From a virus: a DNA stretch of 37,301 nucleotides. Positions 11,880-30,617 of this stretch are shown piece by piece (position 1 is the stretch's first letter; each line of letters opens with the position of its first letter). The notes under the pieces are model-generated. The model saw nothing but the letters and a program-made list of their open reading frames with translations. It did not search any database and was not told where the DNA came from. The stretch covers positions 1-37,301 of the IMG/VR virus record IMGVR_UViG_3300027806_000086. The stretch is one strand, 5' to 3'. The position numbers and the translations under genes were made by a program.

Positions 11880-12142
11880 TATCCGTTGAACGCGCGGACG
11901 CAGACGTTACGGTTGAGGACCTCGCCCGTCGAGAGAGTCGCGACTGCCTCGAGTTGGTACGTCCGGCCGTGCACGACGCCCGAGACTCGGACCGTCGAGA
12001 TCGCGCCGTTGATACCCTGCGACGTGAGCGTGAGGCCCGGGATCGCGTTGTACGTGACCGAGACGAGCGTCGCGTTGCCGAGGTCGCCCCATTCGATCGA
12101 GACGTTGGCGCTATCGCCCGGGTCGAGGTTGATGATGCTCAA
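11879..12142 (-). CDS. Small Ig-like phage structural protein
   Basis: This 87-residue beta-rich protein begins 'MSIINLDPGDSANVSIEWGD' and continues with 'TYNAIPGLTLTSQGINGA' and 'VVHGRTYQLEAVATLSTGEV'. The DPGDS..y.idW...L start followed by alternating strands, 'sG...G.tY.l...v.ts.G', is a recurring small phage protein pattern with a predicted Ig/FN3-like fold. It is usually thought to be virion-associated. It overlaps the repeat-protein gene by four bases (ATGA-type coupling). Confidence 0.65.
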   Translation of the reverse strand: MSIINLDPGDSANVSIEWGDLGNATLVSVTYNAIPGLTLTSQGINGAISTVRVSGVVHGRTYQLEAVATLSTGEVLNRNVCVRAFNG

Positions 12143-12846
12143 TGCACTTTCTCCGATCGGCCGCTCGCCGAGACTCGCGTCGTCGACGTGACGCGCACCC
12201 GGGCGAGCCGGTGCGTCGGCGGCATGTAGGGCGCGCTGCCGTAGGACTCGAGCGTGATCGACCCGAGGGTAATCGACGCCTGTCCGTTAACCGCGAGCGC
12301 GCCCGTCGCCGAGGCGAGGACGTCCGCGAGCGTTATCGCCGCCGAGCCGCGGATATCGACGCGGCCGGTCGAGCTCGTCGAGACGTCGCCGAGGGTCGTC
12401 GAGAGAGCTCCCGAGACCCGGAGCGCGCCGGTCGCCGAGACCGATACCGGGCCGAGCGTCGCCGCGAGGGTGCCGCTGTTCGTCGCCTGTAGCGTTCCCG
12501 TCGCCGCGATCGAGACCGCGCCGAGCGTTATCGCGCTCGAGCCGGCGATCCGGAGAGCGGCGGTCGAGGTTAGCGCGACGTCGCCGAGCGTTACCGCCGA
12601 CGTCGCCGCGATGCGGACCGTTCCGGTCGCCGCGAGGGAGATCGCGCCGAGCGTCGCGTCGAGCGAGCCCGAGGCGGAGGCGCCGGCGGTTCCGTTCGCC
12701 GAGAGCGTAACGTCGCCGAGCGTTACCGACGACTCGCCCGCGATAAGGAGCGCGCCGTCGGACGAGAGCGTAACGTCGCCGAGGGTAACGGAGAGCGCGC
12801 CCGAGACCGATCCGGCCGCTGTCTGATTCAGCAGCAGGAGCAGCAT
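12139..12846 (-). CDS. Repeat-rich putative virion (fibre-like) protein
   Basis: This 235-residue protein is built mainly from about ten imperfect ~20-residue units with the pattern 'G.L.ATLG.VSLAATG.LRI' or 'SAVTLGDVTLSSTG', spanning residues ~10-200. A different C-terminal tail '...RLARVRVTSTTRVSASG' follows. The short strand-turn periodicity (Thr-Leu-Gly-x-Val/Ile every ~20 residues) suggests a beta-solenoid or stacked-strand fibre. ATG 12846 lies one base past the TGA of the small gene upstream. Position between Q and terminase implies late expression. No enzymatic motif. A virion fibre or decoration role is inference. Confidence 0.6.
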   Translation of the reverse strand: MLLLLLNQTAAGSVSGALSVTLGDVTLSSDGALLIAGESSVTLGDVTLSANGTAGASASGSLDATLGAISLAATGTVRIAATSAVTLGDVALTSTAALRIAGSSAITLGAVSIAATGTLQATNSGTLAATLGPVSVSATGALRVSGALSTTLGDVSTSSTGRVDIRGSAAITLADVLASATGALAVNGQASITLGSITLESYGSAPYMPPTHRLARVRVTSTTRVSASGRSEKVH

Positions 12847-16412: not shown

Positions 16413-16948
16413 GTCCCGCCCTCCGGTTTCGGGAGGACGCGGGCGAGCACGTCGCCGACGCGGGCCGGGCCGAGCGCGCGCGTCCGCCACGTCGACGAGG
16501 GCGCGACGAGCGCCGGGAGCGCCTCGCGGACCTCTTCGCGCGCCTCGATCTCGACGAAGTGTTCCGCGAACCGCCGCTCGAGGAACGGGAGCGAGTCCTC
16601 GGACGCGCGCGCGATAACCTGCCAGCCGCCGAGGGCGGCGACGGCGCGCTCGACGGGCGGGACGGACGGGCCGGCGCGATACGCGCCTCTGGCGTGAACG
16701 AGCGCAGCCTGCCACGCCTCGCCGGCGGTCATGGCGCCGGCGCGTCGAAGGGCGGCGAAGTCGGCCGGGCGCGGCATAAACCGGCTCGAGGTAAGCAGGT
16801 GGGCCGCGGCGCGTTCGACGTCCTCGAGCGGCCACGCGCGGAGGGCGAGCCAGTAGGCGTCGAGCAGCGTGCCGTCGAGTTCGCGGTCGTAGACGCGGGC
16901 GAGGCCGGCGATCACGGCGCGGAATCGGGAGAAGTCGTTAGCCTCCAT
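16409..16948 (-). CDS. Putative replicative helicase loader (P-like)
   Basis: This 179-residue protein follows the O-like initiator with an 11-base overlap. Its N-terminal half has 'LDGTLLDAYWLALRAWPLED' and 'AAAHLLTSSRFMPRPADFAA', the 'yw..L..wp.e.v..A...l......fmPrPad' pattern found in loader-type proteins (lambda P/G39P-like position and helix arrangement). The rest is helical with no ATPase P-loop. The likely role is bringing the host DnaB helicase to the phage origin, because no phage helicase gene is visible in the window. The assignment rests on synteny plus this motif. An ATP-dependent DnaC-like loader is excluded by the missing Walker motifs. Confidence 0.6.
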   Translation of the reverse strand: MEANDFSRFRAVIAGLARVYDRELDGTLLDAYWLALRAWPLEDVERAAAHLLTSSRFMPRPADFAALRRAGAMTAGEAWQAALVHARGAYRAGPSVPPVERAVAALGGWQVIARASEDSLPFLERRFAEHFVEIEAREEVREALPALVAPSSTWRTRALGPARVGDVLARVLPKPEGGT

Positions 16949-17855
16949 TGCGGCGGACCTCCGGCGGTAGCCAGTCGGCGGTTCGGTCGACGTTGGCGCG
17001 GGTCAGGGTCGAGAGGTCGGTCCGCGGCGGGTTCCGCGCGAACGCGAGCCCGGCGTCGATGTGCTTGGCGTCGCGGAGGAAGAGTTCGATGGAGTCGTAG
17101 ACCGTCCCGCGGTCGTTCTGCCCCATGTGATGAGGCGAGTTCTGGTAGCCGCCGATCGCGGCGCAGAGGTCGGTCTCGGAGTAGTTCCGGAGGGCGGCGC
17201 GGATCAGCTTGCGGCGCTTCGGGTCGAGCTTCGCCTGCGGGTGCCGATAGGTCGATCGCCAGAACTCGAACACGCGGAGGACGGTCTCGGAGTCGGTCTC
17301 GGTCTCGGTCTCCGGATCGTCGGTTGCCTTCGGGCGGCTCGATCTCCGCGCGGTCGGCGCAGCCGGCATATCGGTTTTACTCTCTGGTCTGGTCTGGTCT
17401 AGTCTGGTCTGGTCTAGTAACGCCTCTGCGTTACCGGTCGAAACGCTAGTGCGTTTCGCGGACGTCTCTCGGTGCCTCGCCACCCTCTTCGACGTTAGCG
17501 CCCGGCGGCGCGCGTCGACTCCGTTATGCGCTTGAAATCCCGGCAATTCGACGCGGTTTTCGTCGATCGCGACGACCCAATCCGGCGGGAGGCAGGAGCA
17601 GAAACCCGGGATGCCGAGCAGCTCGTCGAGCTCGTCGAACCCGAGGTCGAGCGTGTCGTCCTCCCGGGCGTGCGAGTCGGCGTAAATCCAGAGCCGCGCG
17701 AGACCGCCGATGACTTGCGTTACATAGTGAAACGCACTTGCGTTACCAGTCGCGGCGCCGGCGCGCTGCCGGTCGAGCCGGGCAAGCGCCTTCGCGGCCC
17801 GGAGTACGCGCGGGTCGGTCTCGAGCGCCTTTTCGAGTTTGATCCATGCGCTCAT
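16938..17855 (-). CDS. Replication initiator/organiser (lambda O / DnaD-like)
   Basis: This 305-residue protein starts at ATG 17855, coupled to the upstream glycosyltransferase stop by an ATGA overlap. The N-terminus, 'MSAWIKLEKALETDPRVLRA' then a winged-helix-like region 'QVIGGLARLWIYADSH...LDELLGIPGF', looks DNA-binding. A disordered linker (~140-200) carries 'LLDQTRLDQTR' and 'PETETETDSET'. The C-terminal domain reads 'FEFWRSTYRHPQAKLDPKRR', 'YSETDLCAAIGGYQNSPHHM', 'GTVYDSIELFLRDAKHID', the DnaD-like module of phage replication proteins. It should bind the origin and recruit the loader and helicase. Dense direct and inverted repeats lie within this gene (17282-17746), as iterons do in lambda O. 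Confidence 0.85.
   Translation of the reverse strand: MSAWIKLEKALETDPRVLRAAKALARLDRQRAGAATGNASAFHYVTQVIGGLARLWIYADSHAREDDTLDLGFDELDELLGIPGFCSCLPPDWVVAIDENRVELPGFQAHNGVDARRRALTSKRVARHRETSAKRTSVSTGNAEALLDQTRLDQTRPESKTDMPAAPTARRSSRPKATDDPETETETDSETVLRVFEFWRSTYRHPQAKLDPKRRKLIRAALRNYSETDLCAAIGGYQNSPHHMGQNDRGTVYDSIELFLRDAKHIDAGLAFARNPPRTDLSTLTRANVDRTADWLPPEVRRNGG
17282..17419. repeat. AGACC/GGTCT repeat clusters in replication gene (origin candidate)
   Basis: Two clusters share the core GGTCT. At 17282-17311 CGGTCT occurs four times, three of them in tandem. At 17385-17419 there are seven tandem 5-mers (TGGTC with two TAGTC/TAGTA variants), giving a 15-base unit repeated with 14 of 15 identity (17390-17404, 17405-17419). 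A more AT-rich stretch (17371-17384) lies between them. They encode the linker of the initiator. Iterons inside the initiator gene are the lambda arrangement. Confidence 0.55.
17417..17746. repeat. GCGTTAC iterons and perfect hairpins in replication gene
   Basis: GCGTTAC occurs at 17428-17434, 17717-17723 and 17740-17746, with its inverse GTAACGC at 17417-17423. The last two belong to an 11-base direct repeat ACTTGCGTTAC with 23-base spacing. GTAACGC-CTCT-GCGTTAC (17417-17434) and CGAAACGC-TAGT-GCGTTTCG (17439-17458) are perfect stem-loops. Such clustering is unexpected for protein coding alone and fits initiator binding sites. Confidence 0.5.
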
Positions 17856-18802
17856 GCCGAGGCCGCCTCCCCGGTCGCGTAGCGGCTGCGCTTTTCCGAC
17901 CGCGGGCGGTCGATCCGGACCCAACGGCCGGAGTCGACGCGCTGCTGCAACGTCATCCCGAAGTTATCGACGCCGGACGGAACCTCGACGCCCGGCCGGC
18001 GCCGGAGCGGGATCGTCTTGAACGGCGAGTAGTCGACGTGGTGATGCCACCGGCCGAACTTGAAAACGACCCGCGCGACGTCCGGGTGCATCGCCGCGAG
18101 CATCTCACTCTTCGGGCGGGTTCCCTCCGACGCGTAGAACTCCGCCGTGTTCCCGCCCGCGACGACCTGCGTCGGCATCTTGTATTGGAGAAACGCGTTG
18201 AACTGGACCGTCGCCCAACCGTCTTTCAGCATCCGGAGCGAGAGGTCCGTGTCCTCGTTGTAGCGGCCGCGCCAGCGGTAAGGGGCGTCATTCCGGATCA
18301 GGTTGCAGGAATAGATGCGGGTATTGGTCACGAAGGGCGGCATCACGCTCTTCCGGCTCGCGAACATGAAGTAATTGGGGCCGGCCATCGCAACGTTTTC
18401 GTAGCGGGTGCAGAAATCTTCCATGGCGCGCCAGAACGCGGCGGCGACGCACGGCGTCTTTAGGTTGTAGTTCAGGCGATAGAACCCGTTGATGTTGTCG
18501 TCCATTACCCAGTGCCAGGCGTGGCCGTTCGCGATCGAGTGGTCCCACGCGAAGTTCCGCGCGGCGCCCGGGCCGACACTCTTCGTCGTCCCGAACTCGT
18601 CGAATGTGTCGTATCGGTCCTTGTAGGAGAGGTCGAGCTCGAGGATCGTCGCGAGCGGGTCGCAGGCGGCGCGGTAGGCGTCGACCTCCGCGGGCTCGAC
18701 GACGATGTAGTGCGGGACGCGCATCGCGACGAGCGACTTGTGCGTCAGCCGGGACTCCCAGCGCCCTTTCGAGACGATGTAAAGCGGAAACCGCGGCATC
18801 AT
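17852..18802 (-). CDS. TET/JBP-associated glycosyltransferase (TAGT) homologue
   Basis: This 316-residue protein starts at ATG 18802 in an ATGA-type overlap with its companion gene. The N-terminus 'FPLYIVSKGRWESRLTHKSL' and 'VPHYIVVEPAEVDAYRAACD' are the hallmark of the TAGT family, phage and eukaryotic glycosyltransferases linked to TET/JBP base oxidation. 'GPGAARNFAWDHSIANGHAW' and 'HWVMDDNINGFYRL' follow, with Asp-Asp-Asn at ~125 as the DxD-like metal and nucleotide-sugar motif of a GT-A fold. 'RWRGRYNEDTDLSLRMLKDG' (residue ~200) looks like the catalytic acidic region. In characterised phages such enzymes are proposed to glycosylate hydroxymethylcytosine. Here no cytosine methylase or TET/JBP oxygenase is visible, so the acceptor is unknown. 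Confidence 0.8.
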   Translation of the reverse strand: MMPRFPLYIVSKGRWESRLTHKSLVAMRVPHYIVVEPAEVDAYRAACDPLATILELDLSYKDRYDTFDEFGTTKSVGPGAARNFAWDHSIANGHAWHWVMDDNINGFYRLNYNLKTPCVAAAFWRAMEDFCTRYENVAMAGPNYFMFASRKSVMPPFVTNTRIYSCNLIRNDAPYRWRGRYNEDTDLSLRMLKDGWATVQFNAFLQYKMPTQVVAGGNTAEFYASEGTRPKSEMLAAMHPDVARVVFKFGRWHHHVDYSPFKTIPLRRRPGVEVPSGVDNFGMTLQQRVDSGRWVRIDRPRSEKRSRYATGEAASA

Positions 18803-19113
18803 GATTCGCTGCCCTCCGGCGCATAGCGTTTGTCGACCATGTGACCGATCTCCGCCTCCGGGTACCAAATCGAGCGCGTGTTCGGAGTTAGCGTCTGCTC
18901 GACGAGTCTCGAGAACCGCTCCATGTCCTCGTCACTCTCGAAGTGGACGATCACCGAGTAGCGCGGCGTAAGGTCCTCCTGAACAAACTCCGGCATCCCG
19001 CGCCACTCGGCGATCCATGGCGCCTCGATGCCCTCGAAGGAGAGTTGCTCGAGGTCGCCCGCGCGCGGGACGAGCCGAGCGGCGGAACCGCTCCCGGTCG
19101 ACGGGTTAGCCAT
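18799..19113 (-). CDS. Conserved companion protein of TAGT gene ('SIWYP' family)
   Basis: This 104-residue protein has an unstructured start, then 'MPEFVQEDLTPRYSVIVHFE', 'DEDMERFSRLVEQTLTPNTR', 'SIWYPEAEIGHMVDKRYAPE'. The order (PeF...dl.p...i.VhF....d...F..lv.q.lt..T.SiWyP) recurs in phage and plasmid proteins of unknown function, often near DNA-modification or nucleotide-transfer genes. Alternating strand and helix suggest a small ferredoxin-like fold. It sits between the HTH gene (8-base overlap) and the TAGT gene (ATGA), so the two are probably used together. Function unknown. Confidence 0.7.
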   Translation of the reverse strand: MANPSTGSGSAARLVPRAGDLEQLSFEGIEAPWIAEWRGMPEFVQEDLTPRYSVIVHFESDEDMERFSRLVEQTLTPNTRSIWYPEAEIGHMVDKRYAPEGSES

Positions 19114-19318
19114 TCGAGCGGCCCTCCCGTTTGCCGGCGACGATCCGCTCTCGATAGAGCTCGTCGAGAGCGAGCGCGGCGTCGCCTCGCGGCGCGTTCG
19201 TCCTCTGTTTTTCGATATCGCAGACCGCGGCGGGCGAGAGGCCGACGCGCGCGCCGATAGCGGCGAGCGTGAGGCCCGAGCGGCGGAGCGTTCGGATGCG
19301 GTGTGACCAGTTGGGCAT
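19106..19318 (-). CDS. Small HTH (Cro-like) regulator
   Basis: This 70-residue protein has an N-terminal helix-turn-helix: 'IRTLRRSGLTLAAIGARVGL' then 'SPAAVCDIEKQRTNAPRGDA', as in Cro and other small XRE-type proteins. There is no dimerisation or peptidase domain. It is the first gene of the leftward operon and faces the XRE regulator gene across 101 bases, mirroring cI/cro pairs. It probably switches between lytic and lysogenic states. Which of the two plays the repressor is not determined by sequence. Confidence 0.8.
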   Translation of the reverse strand: MPNWSHRIRTLRRSGLTLAAIGARVGLSPAAVCDIEKQRTNAPRGDAALALDELYRERIVAGKREGRSNG

Positions 19319-19419: not shown

Positions 19420-19791
19420 ATGAACGCAGGAACACGATTGAAAGAGCGCCGCGTCGAGCTCGGGATGACGGTCGCCGAGCTCGCGCGCTCGGCCGGGATC
19501 GCCGCGTCGACTCTTTACGACCTCGAGCGCGGGGTGAGTCGGTCGTCGCGACAGATGCACCGACTCTGCTCCGCTCTCGCGCTAAACCCGGACTGGGTAG
19601 AGACCGGCGCCGGGCCGCGGCTCGCGAACGAAAAACCCCGGCAAAATGGGCTCGAAATCGTTTACGCGGGCGAGCGCATAACCGCCGAGTCCGCGCGTCT
19701 CGCGGCGCAGATCGAGCGGCTCGACGAGTCGGTCCGCCGGCACGTCGAGGCAGTAATCGCGTCTCTCGTCGACGCGTCGCCGAAGAAGTAG
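19420..19791 (+). CDS. XRE-family regulator (putative repressor)
   Basis: This 123-residue protein begins 'MNAGTRLKERRVELGMTVAE' with a canonical XRE helix-turn-helix 'AELARSAGIAASTLYDLERG' (residues ~19-40). A charged linker and a helical C-terminus 'LAAQIERLDESVRRHVEAVI' suit dimerisation. It lacks the S24 self-cleavage domain of lambda cI, so induction would not be by RecA-mediated cleavage of this protein. AGAAGG precedes ATG 19420. It is the first rightward gene and faces the Cro-like gene. A maintenance repressor is the likeliest role. Confidence 0.82.
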   Translation: MNAGTRLKERRVELGMTVAELARSAGIAASTLYDLERGVSRSSRQMHRLCSALALNPDWVETGAGPRLANEKPRQNGLEIVYAGERITAESARLAAQIERLDESVRRHVEAVIASLVDASPKK

Positions 19792-25136: not shown

Positions 25137-26702
25137 GTGCGCTCCGTAATCTACGCCCGATTCTCGACCGAGCATCAGTCGGAGTCGACGATCCTCGACC
25201 AGATACGCCGCTGCCGCGAGTACGCGGACGCGCGCGGGTGGCCGATTGACGGAGTGTTCACGGACGAGGGCATATCGGGCGCCGCGCTCGGGAATCGTCC
25301 CGGCGCCCGGGCCGCGCTCGAGCGTCTCGAGACCGGCGACGTCTTGCTCGTCGTCGACACGACGCGACTCTCGAGGTCGCAGGACCTCGCGCCGCTCCTG
25401 ACCCGCCTCCGGCACCGAGGCGTCCGCGTCCTCGGCGTCCTCGACGGGTTCGACTCGAACAGCGGGACGGCGCGGATGCAGGCCGGTCTCTCCGGGATCA
25501 TGTCCGAAGAGTTCCGGGCGTCGATTGCGGCGCGGACGCATTCGGCGCTCGACATGCGGGCGCGCGACGGACGCGCGACCGGCGGCAAGTGCTACGGGTT
25601 CGACCGCGGAGGCGGGATCGTCGAGGCGGAGGCGGAGGTCGTCCGGGAGATTTTCCGCCGGGTCGCGGCGGGCGAGGCGCAGAAGGCGATTGCCGGCGAC
25701 CTGAACGCGCGCGGCGTCCCGGCCCCGGGCGCGTCGTGGTCGCGCCGGGTTCGGCGAGCCGATGGCGTATGGATGGCCCCGACGCTAAACGCGATGCTGG
25801 CCAACGAGCGATATGCCGGCCGCGTCGTCTGGAACCGCTCGGCGTGGCGGCGGAACCCCGACTCCGGAGTCCGCGAGCGGGTCGAGCGGCCCGAGGCGGA
25901 ATGGATTGTGCGCGACGGTCCGGAGCTCGTCGACCGCGAGACCTTCGACCGGGTGCGCGCCATAGCGGCGCCGCGCCGACTCTTCGGCGGCCGGCCGGGC
26001 GGCGGCCCGCGTTACCTGCTCTCCGGCATCCTCGTCTGCGGCGAGTGCGGGCGGCGGCTCGTCGCGACCGGCCGAGGCGGGTCGCACTATTACTGCGGCA
26101 CCCACAAGTCCGGCGGCGCGGCGGCCTGCAGTATGTCCGTCGGCGCCCGGCGGGAGGTCGCCGAGCGCGTCCTACTCGAGCCGATCGAGCGCGATCTACT
26201 CTCGCCGGCCGCGGTCGAGCTCGCGGTCGAGGTCATCCGCCGGCTAGACCGGGAGGCGCGGGTCCGGGCGGTCGAACCGGCCGAGGTCGCCGAGGTCGAG
26301 CGCCGGATCGCCCGGCTCGAGGGGCAGATCGCGGCGGGCTCTATCGAGCGGGAGGACGTCCTGCCGGCGCTCGCCGCCCTCGAGGATCGGCGTCGGGCGG
26401 CCCGTGCGGGCGCGTGGCGGCGGTCGAGCGGGAGGCCGGGCGTAGACGCGGCCGCGGCCGTGGCGGCCTACACGCGCGCCGTGGTCAGCATGAGAGACGC
26501 CCTAACCGCCGGCCCGGTCGCCCGGGCTCGGGAGGCGCTCCATCGGATTCTCGGCGACGTTGTTTGCCGTCCCGTCGACGGCGCCCTCGTCGCCTCCGTC
26601 GGGCTCGATCCTCGGCCGCTGCTCGAGGCGGCCGGGATTTCTTGGAGTGGTAGCGGGGGCGCGCTATGTCACCGAGAAATCGCCCTCCGCCTGTCCGCCT
26701 AG
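25137..26702 (+). CDS. Large serine recombinase (phage integrase)
   Basis: This 521-residue protein starts at GTG 25137. The N-terminal resolvase domain has 'SVIYARFSTEHQSESTILDQ' with nucleophile Ser10, and 'LLVVDTTRLSR' with active-site arginines near 77-80. The recombinase domain (~150-280) contains 'KCYGFDRGGG', 'NARGVPAPGASWSRR' and 'LNAMLANERYAGRVVWNR'. A zinc ribbon uses Cys301, Cys304, Cys320 and Cys331 ('LVCGECGRRL...YYCGTHK...AACSM'). A coiled coil near 360-405 ('EVAEVERRIARLEGQIAAG') follows, as in large serine integrases. It integrates and, with a directionality factor, excises the phage between attP and attB. The domain order is complete, so it is probably active. Confidence 0.97.
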   Translation: MRSVIYARFSTEHQSESTILDQIRRCREYADARGWPIDGVFTDEGISGAALGNRPGARAALERLETGDVLLVVDTTRLSRSQDLAPLLTRLRHRGVRVLGVLDGFDSNSGTARMQAGLSGIMSEEFRASIAARTHSALDMRARDGRATGGKCYGFDRGGGIVEAEAEVVREIFRRVAAGEAQKAIAGDLNARGVPAPGASWSRRVRRADGVWMAPTLNAMLANERYAGRVVWNRSAWRRNPDSGVRERVERPEAEWIVRDGPELVDRETFDRVRAIAAPRRLFGGRPGGGPRYLLSGILVCGECGRRLVATGRGGSHYYCGTHKSGGAAACSMSVGARREVAERVLLEPIERDLLSPAAVELAVEVIRRLDREARVRAVEPAEVAEVERRIARLEGQIAAGSIEREDVLPALAALEDRRRAARAGAWRRSSGRPGVDAAAAVAAYTRAVVSMRDALTAGPVARAREALHRILGDVVCRPVDGALVASVGLDPRPLLEAAGISWSGSGGALCHREIALRLSA

Positions 26703-29090: not shown

Positions 29091-29266
29091 CGGGGTTTCT
29101 CCGGGTTGCGATCGGTCTCCGGGCGGAAGCCGGCGCGGCCGCAGCCGGAGCCGTCGGGAGGGTGCCAGCCGTGCCACGTCGAGTGCGAGCACCAGACCCG
29201 GGCGTCGGCCCGGGTAAGTTCGGCGGCCCAGAAGCAGAGCCGGCAGGGCTCGGAGGCGGAGGTCAA
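29075..29266 (-). CDS. Small Cys/His-rich protein (63 aa)
   Basis: TTG 29266 overlaps the phosphoesterase stop (TTGA), so a coupled non-standard start is proposed. The product holds 'CRLCFWAAELTRADARVWCS' then 'HSTWHGWHPPDGSGCGRAGF', with CxxC, CSH and HGWH...C spacing suitable for a zinc site. Similar compact proteins occur in phage accessory regions. The 3' end overlaps the Rz-like gene. Function unknown. Confidence 0.6.
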   Translation of the reverse strand: MTSASEPCRLCFWAAELTRADARVWCSHSTWHGWHPPDGSGCGRAGFRPETDRNPEKPRCPSG

Positions 29267-30375
29267 GCCGCGGCCCGGCGCTTGCGTAGCCACGTCAGGT
29301 AGTCTGCGGCCGCCTCGATATCGTGCTCGACGCGGACGAGACCGAGCTCGCCGGCGCGCGGGTCGAGGATAACCGTCGCGGACGGCGCGATCATCGCGGG
29401 CGGGAGTCCGAGCGCGTCGGCGTAGGCGTCGTGAATCTTGTACGACCCGAGTTGAAGCAGGTGCGCGAGATGCCCCGTCGCCGCGATCCGGAGCATTTGA
29501 TAACCGCCGGTATGCTTGTGTCCGGAGACGATCACGTGATCGTGATGAGTTAACTTCGCCGCGCGCAGTTGCCCGTGCGAGGGATTCCACATCGAGTTGC
29601 CCGGCCAGTCGTGCCGGGCCGCCATCCTTACCTCGGCGCCGTTCGCGAACTCGAGCGCGACGCGGACGGTATGGTCGCCCGTTAGCGCGACGCCGGCCTG
29701 CCGCTGTATCCAGCGCAGCGGGTCGCCGGAGCCGCTCCAGTGATCGTGATTTCCCTGCACCATGAAGAGCCAATGCTCGGAGAGTTCCGAGACGAGCCAC
29801 TCGACGAGCTGCCACGCCTGTCCGGCCGTCGTCTCCTGCTCTCCGTAGAGCCGGGCAAGGCGCCCAATCCAGTTGTTCTGAAGGTCGCCGATACACGCCG
29901 CGTAGAGTCCCGGCGTCCGCTTGATAATCCCGATATCCCGCTCGAGTTGCCCGAGGTCCGTCGAGTCGTCGTCGACGTGCGGATCGCCGAGCAGCGTGAC
30001 CGCGATCGGTTCCGACGTCCGGACCTTGACCCGGACCAACTTGCGCGCCCGAGCGGCCGCGTCCTTCCGCGCGAACGCGCGCTTGCGGCGCTCGATCAGT
30101 TCGCGGACGTCGATCTTGCCGTCGGGTAACTTCGGGATGTCGAGCATCTCGATCTTGCGCGGCGCCTCCGCGGTCGCGACGTTCGGCGAACGGAACCGGG
30201 CAGCCGGGTCATAGGTGCTTTCCGGGATCGCGACGCCGCGAGACTTAAGCCCGTCGATGCGATTGGAGAGCGCCCGCCCGTTGATACCGAGCTGTCGCGC
30301 GGCCTCCGCGCGCACGCCTTTCGTCGCGTGTAACGCGGCGACTATTTCCTCGTCGGTGACTTTCTGGACTGGCAC
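29263..30375 (-). CDS. HTH-metallophosphoesterase fusion
   Basis: This 370-residue protein starts at GTG 30375 with GGAGG seven bases upstream. Residues ~5-47 form a helix-turn-helix ('TDEEIVAALHATKGVRAEAA', 'RQLGINGRALSNRIDGLKSR') like Fis-type repair or transposase domains. From ~120 the calcineurin-like fold shows 'VTLLGDPHVDDD' (Asp131, His133), 'CIGDLQNN' (Asp164), 'VQGNHDHW' (Asn209-His210-Asp211) and 'VSGHKHTGG' (~285-288), all metal-ligand motifs intact. It should hydrolyse phosphodiesters or nucleotides, possibly at a DNA site chosen by the HTH. It sits among lysis genes but has no signal peptide, so a cytoplasmic role is likely. Confidence 0.9.
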   Translation of the reverse strand: MPVQKVTDEEIVAALHATKGVRAEAARQLGINGRALSNRIDGLKSRGVAIPESTYDPAARFRSPNVATAEAPRKIEMLDIPKLPDGKIDVRELIERRKRAFARKDAAARARKLVRVKVRTSEPIAVTLLGDPHVDDDSTDLGQLERDIGIIKRTPGLYAACIGDLQNNWIGRLARLYGEQETTAGQAWQLVEWLVSELSEHWLFMVQGNHDHWSGSGDPLRWIQRQAGVALTGDHTVRVALEFANGAEVRMAARHDWPGNSMWNPSHGQLRAAKLTHHDHVIVSGHKHTGGYQMLRIAATGHLAHLLQLGSYKIHDAYADALGLPPAMIAPSATVILDPRAGELGLVRVEHDIEAAADYLTWLRKRRAAA

Positions 30376-30617
30376 GCGGCCTCCGTTGCCTCTTCGGGCG
30401 GTGACTCTTCGGACACGGTGATACCGCGCTCGCGTCGTCGCGTCGCGGTCCGCTTGTCGTCCCTCATCGCGCGCCACTCGATATGGCCGTCGACGACGCG
30501 GAACTCTTCGCGGTGAACGAGCGCGCAGTCGCAGCACTCGGTATGGGTGTAGCCCTTCATCCGGTACCAGACGCCATCGACGATCTGCACCGCGGCGTAT
30601 TTCTGGCGGCCGGCCAC
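30342..30617 (-). CDS. Small Cys-rich phage protein (91 aa)
   Basis: GTG 30617 lies two bases after the holin stop. The product reads 'MAGRQKYAAVQIVDGVWYRM' then 'KGYTHTECCDCALVHREEFR' and a basic Arg-rich tail. The 'eCcdCalVH' segment recurs in small phage proteins and may bind zinc. The gene overlaps the phosphoesterase gene by 34 bases. Function unknown. Confidence 0.68.
   Translation of the reverse strand: MAGRQKYAAVQIVDGVWYRMKGYTHTECCDCALVHREEFRVVDGHIEWRAMRDDKRTATRRRERGITVSEESPPEEATEAACQSRKSPTRK

Follow-up and report, generated by a model that had tools for sequence, protein, structure and literature searches.

The window analysed here, that is, the whole 37,301-nucleotide stretch of IMG/VR virus record IMGVR_UViG_3300027806_000086, carries a glycosyltransferase gene of the TAGT family. 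It lies on the minus strand within a set of genes ordered Cro-like HTH regulator, partner protein, TAGT and replication initiator, each of which overlaps the next by a few bases. The features considered below are:

19420..19791, plus strand: CI-like HTH repressor, divergent (HTH_3, 1.3e-8)
19106..19318, minus strand: Cro-like HTH regulator, first gene of the overlapping set (HTH_31, 5.6e-8; phrog_6223, 9e-10)
18799..19113, minus strand: partner protein of 104 aa, GMPEF domain at about residues 33-98; overlaps the TAGT start (ATGA)
17852..18802, minus strand: TAGT-family glycosyltransferase of 316 aa, predicted GT-A fold (Pfam, PHROG, alignment, model)
16938..17855, minus strand: replication initiation protein, its start sharing ATGA with the TAGT stop (phrog_2509, 4e-23)
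25137..26702, plus strand: serine integrase (Resolvase, 6e-28; Recombinase, 2e-18)

The repressor and the serine integrase indicate that the phage of the window is temperate. Its replication genes comprise the initiator and an SSB, with no polymerase seen, and it appears to depend on host replication. If so, replacement of a base through the nucleotide pool would be unlikely and a post-replicative step would be favoured. A preliminary description, made from the sequence alone, had TAGT expressed with the replication operon; the gene order, with its overlaps through the replication initiator, fits that proposal, while expression itself remains a prediction. A scan for sigma-70 promoters returned 0 matches against 0.2 expected and so was uninformative.

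The record is a linear contig with both ends in the tail module. At the left end a tail gene (2-742) adjoining the tape-measure gene is cut, and the right end falls just ahead of a 1717-aa tail protein. Judging from gene order, the part absent from the circular map most likely consists of tail genes, with one more gene possible there. Elsewhere in the window, the protein encoded at 29263-30537 has an N-terminal Fis-type HTH and a remainder that is metallophosphoesterase-like by eye, this second part having no Pfam match. A short protein made of repeats (e.g. TLGDVTLSS), without a family match, is encoded at 12139-12846 and adjoins a fibre-adaptor-like gene.

The glycosyltransferase

The TAGT reading frame is intact, from the start ATG at 18802 to the stop TGA at 17852-17854, and the plus-strand frame over the same region is interrupted by a stop. 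The protein matches Pfam PF20691 over profile positions 1-205 of 205 (E 2.2e-43; 149 bits, cut-off 27.5) and phrog_842, annotated as 'beta-glucosyl-HMC-alpha-glucosyltransferase', at 1.1e-48. Judged by these scores the profile match is far above chance, in agreement with the family proposed in the preliminary description. The motifs which the latter had singled out (SKGRW, VVEP, GxxRNFAWD and HWVMDDN) are all present, mostly on invariant or near-invariant columns among 47 homologues.

An AlphaFold model computed with these 47 homologues as input reached a mean pLDDT of 89, low confidence being confined to the last ~17 residues, and we are confident from it that TAGT adopts a GT-A fold. In a structural second look, which leaves room for GT-A fold neighbours beyond those named here, the model matched GalNAc-T2 (VIA Z 14.8, rmsd 4.5, 221 residues) and GlcNAc-transferase I (GlcNAc-T I; VIA Z 13.7, rmsd 3.8, 209 residues); Foldseek also matched it to TAGT models from other phages. 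A search of PDB sequences with the TAGT profile gave nothing credible. Profile search and structure prediction, both proposed as checks in the preliminary description, thus place the protein in the TAGT family and the GT-A fold. The protein has a DxD-type metal-binding motif and an acidic motif, and its active site looks intact because DDN (D101-D102-N103), NEDT (182-185), K12, R14 and E36 are invariant across the 47-sequence alignment. Identity to homologues is 60-69%. A TAGT part 42% identical to the window TAGT was also seen within BFVD entry A0A6G6XN95, an 890-aa viral multidomain protein.

A conserved partner encoded directly upstream

The partner protein contains a domain of ~65 residues, the GMPEF domain, with the pattern WxGMPEF...SIWYP; the window copy reads EWRGMPEFVQEDLTP..IVHF..SIWYPEAEI. 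Searches of Pfam and NCBIfam left it unmatched, and the PDB yielded no credible relative. When the partner was searched against phages by tblastn, matches fell only directly upstream of TAGT (Tenacibaculum PTm1/PTm5 and Aeromonas avDM6). Among the 80 nearest IMG/VR relatives of TAGT, 77 have the partner and the remaining three TAGT genes start at a contig end, so that GMPEF lies upstream in 77 of the 77 having upstream sequence. On a broader scale, with TAGTs clustered at 90% identity, GMPEF is found in the same locus in 142 of 148 clusters, either before TAGT or fused to it. Seven loci lacked a detected GMPEF: four at contig ends (L027, L036, L054 and L317), one in which a truncated GMPEF is fused to TAGT (L197), one with a short upstream stretch (L316) and one with distant tandem TAGTs (L230).

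The association also holds in the opposite direction. A reciprocal search with a DNA pattern for W-x-G-M-P-E-F, blind to TAGT, found TAGT in 111 of 114 GMPEF loci, the pattern having been drawn from TAGT-linked copies so that diverged copies elsewhere may escape it. Two of the other loci end within 60 bases. In the third (L204, 628-1679) the GMPEF protein is followed by an FkbM methyltransferase in TAGT's place, with no TAGT within the 8.4-kb locus. In the window, GMPEF lies directly upstream of TAGT, which is the two-part unit as defined in this analysis. Judged by these distributions, TAGT belongs to a conserved pair of genes, and its partner is near-universal in the clade. The literature searched, a scope outside which Iyer 2013 falls, held no description of the partner domain or of its link to ParB; the domain is apparently undescribed, its novelty being provisional.

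Architecture of the cassette in relatives

In the reduced locus set, no more than 60 bases separate TAGT from the partner in 167 cases; the gap is longer in 32, and 10 TAGT genes are fused to the partner. The fusion also occurs in the isolated phages phiAS5, PTm1 and Vibrio 1.076.O, and a fused homologue (L019) was modelled with a pLDDT of 87. These fusions suggest that GMPEF and TAGT form a physical complex. Aligning GMPEF-only proteins together with fused chains (A3) gave a misalignment, and A4 was used instead.

Of 246 partner proteins encoded separately, 152 have a ParB-like N-terminus (Pfam ParB_N, 7.5e-9 in L002), and in L179 ParB, GMPEF and TAGT are joined in a single chain; the order ParB-GMPEF-TAGT is constant, whether the parts are separate genes or domains. 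The GMPEF protein of the window has no ParB part, and no ParB was found elsewhere in the window. A terminase gene (TerS/TerL) lies no more than 4 kb downstream in at least 52 of the 104 loci with enough sequence, the window cassette being placed instead between the Cro-like regulator and the replication initiator.

The cassettes of other phages contain further genes, namely a second TAGT (7e-30), an FkbM methyltransferase (9e-16), a radical SAM protein (8e-14), a sulfotransferase (2e-12), a DXD glycosyltransferase (Gly_transf_sug, 1e-9) and class I methyltransferases. By family, these are the enzymes expected for elaborating a transferred sugar.

Some loci showed unusual arrangements. Four tandem TAGT-family genes occupy 6144-9291 of L230 (same contig as L319), where the upstream GMPEF-like match is weak. 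In L207 (3-884), L234 (6558-8114) and L325 (946-2403), tandem GMPEF-like repeats and TAGT share a chain, with the repeats in front and their first copy degenerate by eye. As for hosts, PF20691 was found in 2 of 385 sampled genomes of the Rhodovulum class, and the hosts named in the genome collection belong to Gram-negative groups. Prophages with the cassette are present, for example, in Rhodovulum euryhalinum DSM 4868 (L313) and Chryseobacterium gambrini DSM 18014 (L310). A distant TAGT used as query matched itself alone.

Comparison with known systems

In phage packaging regions, proteins with a ParB-like domain also occur in combination with enzymes that modify DNA. The TAGT clade shares with them the ParB-like N-terminus and, in many relatives, the terminase neighbourhood, but differs in that the enzyme attached to ParB is a glycosyltransferase, with the GMPEF domain as the link between them, and the window copy is without the ParB part.

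The name TAGT is currently applied to the enzyme of T2/T6 by which alpha-glucosylated 5hmC receives a second glucose (PMC13216743). Like the window TAGT, T6/T2 ggt belongs to PF20691 and has a GT-A fold (PMC13216743). In contrast, T6 ggt adjoins gene 42, is accompanied by an alpha-GT and has a neighbourhood without GMPEF. It was rejected as a close relative of the window TAGT, showing no BLASTP or profile similarity to it, and as a query it retrieved T-even phages only. Neither the dCMP hydroxymethylase nor the alpha-GT/beta-GT of T-even hydroxymethylcytosine glucosylation was found in the window by the six-frame and Pfam searches described below. Among 753 phage genomes with T-even-type glycosyltransferases, 288 have a solitary TAGT homologue and no alpha-GT/beta-GT, and these were proposed to be novel transferases (PMC13216743). 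The preliminary description had called the window gene an orphan. Over the sequenced record this holds with respect to methylase and TET, but solitary TAGTs are common and the gene has an overlapping partner at 18799-19113 that went unremarked there.

The TAGTs of Aeromonas phiAS5, Aeh1 and 65 and of Tenacibaculum PTm1 are 51-58% identical to that of the window over ~285 residues. As in the window, GMPEF is present in this group (fused in phiAS5 and PTm1), and no TET occurs in phiAS5 or PTm1. However, these are large T4-like or jumbo genomes with a single fused chain, whereas the phage of the window is small, by its gene content temperate, and has separate genes in its replication region. Aeh1ORF087c has been listed as 'glucosyl transferase, presumably modifies DNA, unknown base' (PMC8056088). 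Genes 42 and 56 are missing from Aeh1 and 65, and in some T4-like phages lacking these genes the DNA is open to type II enzymes that do not cut T4 DNA (PMC2993671). Since Aeh1 and 65 lack genes 42/56 yet carry a TAGT relative, heavy glycosylation of cytosine is doubtful, at least in these two phages.

A candidate role in glycosylation of phage DNA

We consider it fairly probable that TAGT, dependent on its partner, glycosylates phage DNA after or during replication, on an acceptor that does not come from the TET route. The GT-A enzyme would work together with the GMPEF protein encoded by the overlapping upstream gene, an obligate subunit whose likely role would be targeting or acceptor presentation. 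A sugar would be moved from a nucleotide-sugar donor onto the phage's own DNA, which would thereby be guarded against host nucleases. The acceptor, other than 5hmC made by a phage methylase and TET, might be an exocyclic amine on a standard base, or else an atom that the partner or the host has made ready. Elsewhere among phages, the sugar would probably be tailored further after its transfer, by a second TAGT, O-methylation or sulfation. The analysis shows the family and fold, the intact motifs, the conserved partner with its fusions, the tailoring genes and a lack of detectable TET; that the two proteins bind each other, that the enzyme is active, that it acts on DNA and that this protects the phage is inferred. 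Three things favour DNA as acceptor: fusion to ParB, genes for terminase or replication nearby, and the precedent of T6. Counting against this model are the doubt about heavy cytosine glycosylation in Aeh1 and 65, the missing ParB in the window, the fragmentary state of most searched records, and the fact that T6 ggt, to which an activity on DNA has been assigned, is not similar in sequence. A more specific version, which we put forward tentatively and regard as rather unlikely, is a self-sufficient system in which GMPEF and TAGT would put sugars on a canonical base, or on one activated by GMPEF/ParB, with no prior methylation or hydroxylation; other phages would then build on the sugar through methylation, sulfation or the addition of another sugar.

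The main rival is that the pair glycosylates something other than DNA, whether a protein of the host or phage, an RNA or a precursor of the cell surface, for instance in host shutdown or surface change. We judge this doubtful, even if several observations are consistent with it: the fold neighbours include protein and polysaccharide glycosyltransferases, the named hosts are Gram-negative, and most records are without a base-activating enzyme. The FkbM, sulfotransferase and Gly_transf_sug genes found in cassettes point the same way, being also typical of surface-glycan loci. On the other hand, fusion to a ParB-like domain and nearby terminase or replication genes argue for DNA, and T6 ggt, a TAGT with an assigned role, acts on DNA (PMC13216743).

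Absence of the classical precursor enzymes

Glycosylation of DNA on an acceptor from outside the TET route also has to be weighed against the classical pathway. Iyer in 2013 and Burke in 2021 are said to have described TET-TAGT systems of cytosine hypermodification in metavirome phages. Their glycosyltransferase is of the same family, but the window is without TET and C5-methylase. Pfam scans of most window ORFs detected no methylase, hydroxymethylase, oxygenase, alpha-GT or beta-GT, and six-frame searches of the record detected no C5-methylase, Tet_JBP or thymidylate-synthase-type enzyme, results which cover the linear record, whose ends cut the tail module and leave a gap. Over that record, the methylase and the Fe(II)/2-oxoglutarate oxygenase that the preliminary description had failed to see were not detected by these searches either.

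The same holds beyond the window. Tet_JBP was found in none of 67 TAGT-bearing records, many or most of them fragments (36 related, 27 more, and the window, PTm1, 1.076.O and phiAS5), by a search that recovered the divergent TET of phage Nigel as a positive control at 4e-8. C5-methylases occur in seven of the 36 related phage records and thymidylate-synthase-type enzymes in two. In six whole host genomes with prophage copies of TAGT, no TET was found, though all six have C5-methylases; host-made 5mC alone, suggested as acceptor in the preliminary description, is therefore unlikely. As TET is absent from TAGT-bearing records and hosts, and C5-methylases are few, the lack of classical precursor enzymes is a rule of the clade and not a peculiarity of this phage.

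Two TET or methylase loci may be recorded here. In Rhodovulum euryhalinum (L313/L324), a C5-methylase lies ~2 kb downstream of a prophage TAGT (G068:C10), in a genome without TET. Gp2 of Mycobacterium phage Nigel (L282, 776-1744), annotated as hypothetical, has a weak Tet_JBP match directly upstream of the terminase, and TAGT is not nearby. TET-linked TAGTs were considered as a contrast set and rejected, 18 Nigel-type TET loci having no nearby TAGT.

It is quite improbable that the classical route operates in disguise, with 5mC from the host oxidized by an unrecognised oxygenase, or 5hmC supplied by another enzyme or a gene in the gap, before glycosylation. The C5-methylases of hosts and of some related phages and the gap in the tail module would allow it, but the searches, which did recover a divergent phage TET as control, found none in the 67 records or the six hosts, and the enzymes would need to be missing likewise in nearly every relative. 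That TAGT is an inactive remnant acquired with its neighbours is hardly credible: the ParB part common in relatives is absent in the window, but the frame is full-length, all invariant residues are kept, identity to homologues is 60-69% and the gene overlaps both flanking genes.

Significance of the two-gene unit

Solitary TAGTs are present in more than one-third of the phages carrying any T-even-type glycosyltransferase (PMC13216743). For these, the partner would be a concrete lead on what the enzymes act on, and its domain the missing component for co-expression, deletion and pull-down experiments, in which a test of TAGT by itself could fail. From the tailoring genes, sugars other than plain glucose are predicted. 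Should the acceptor prove to be DNA lacking 5hmC, as in the partner-dependent glycosylation favoured here, the unit would represent a new way in which DNA becomes glycosylated, and would offer type IV restriction and DNA-glycosylase defences a new target.
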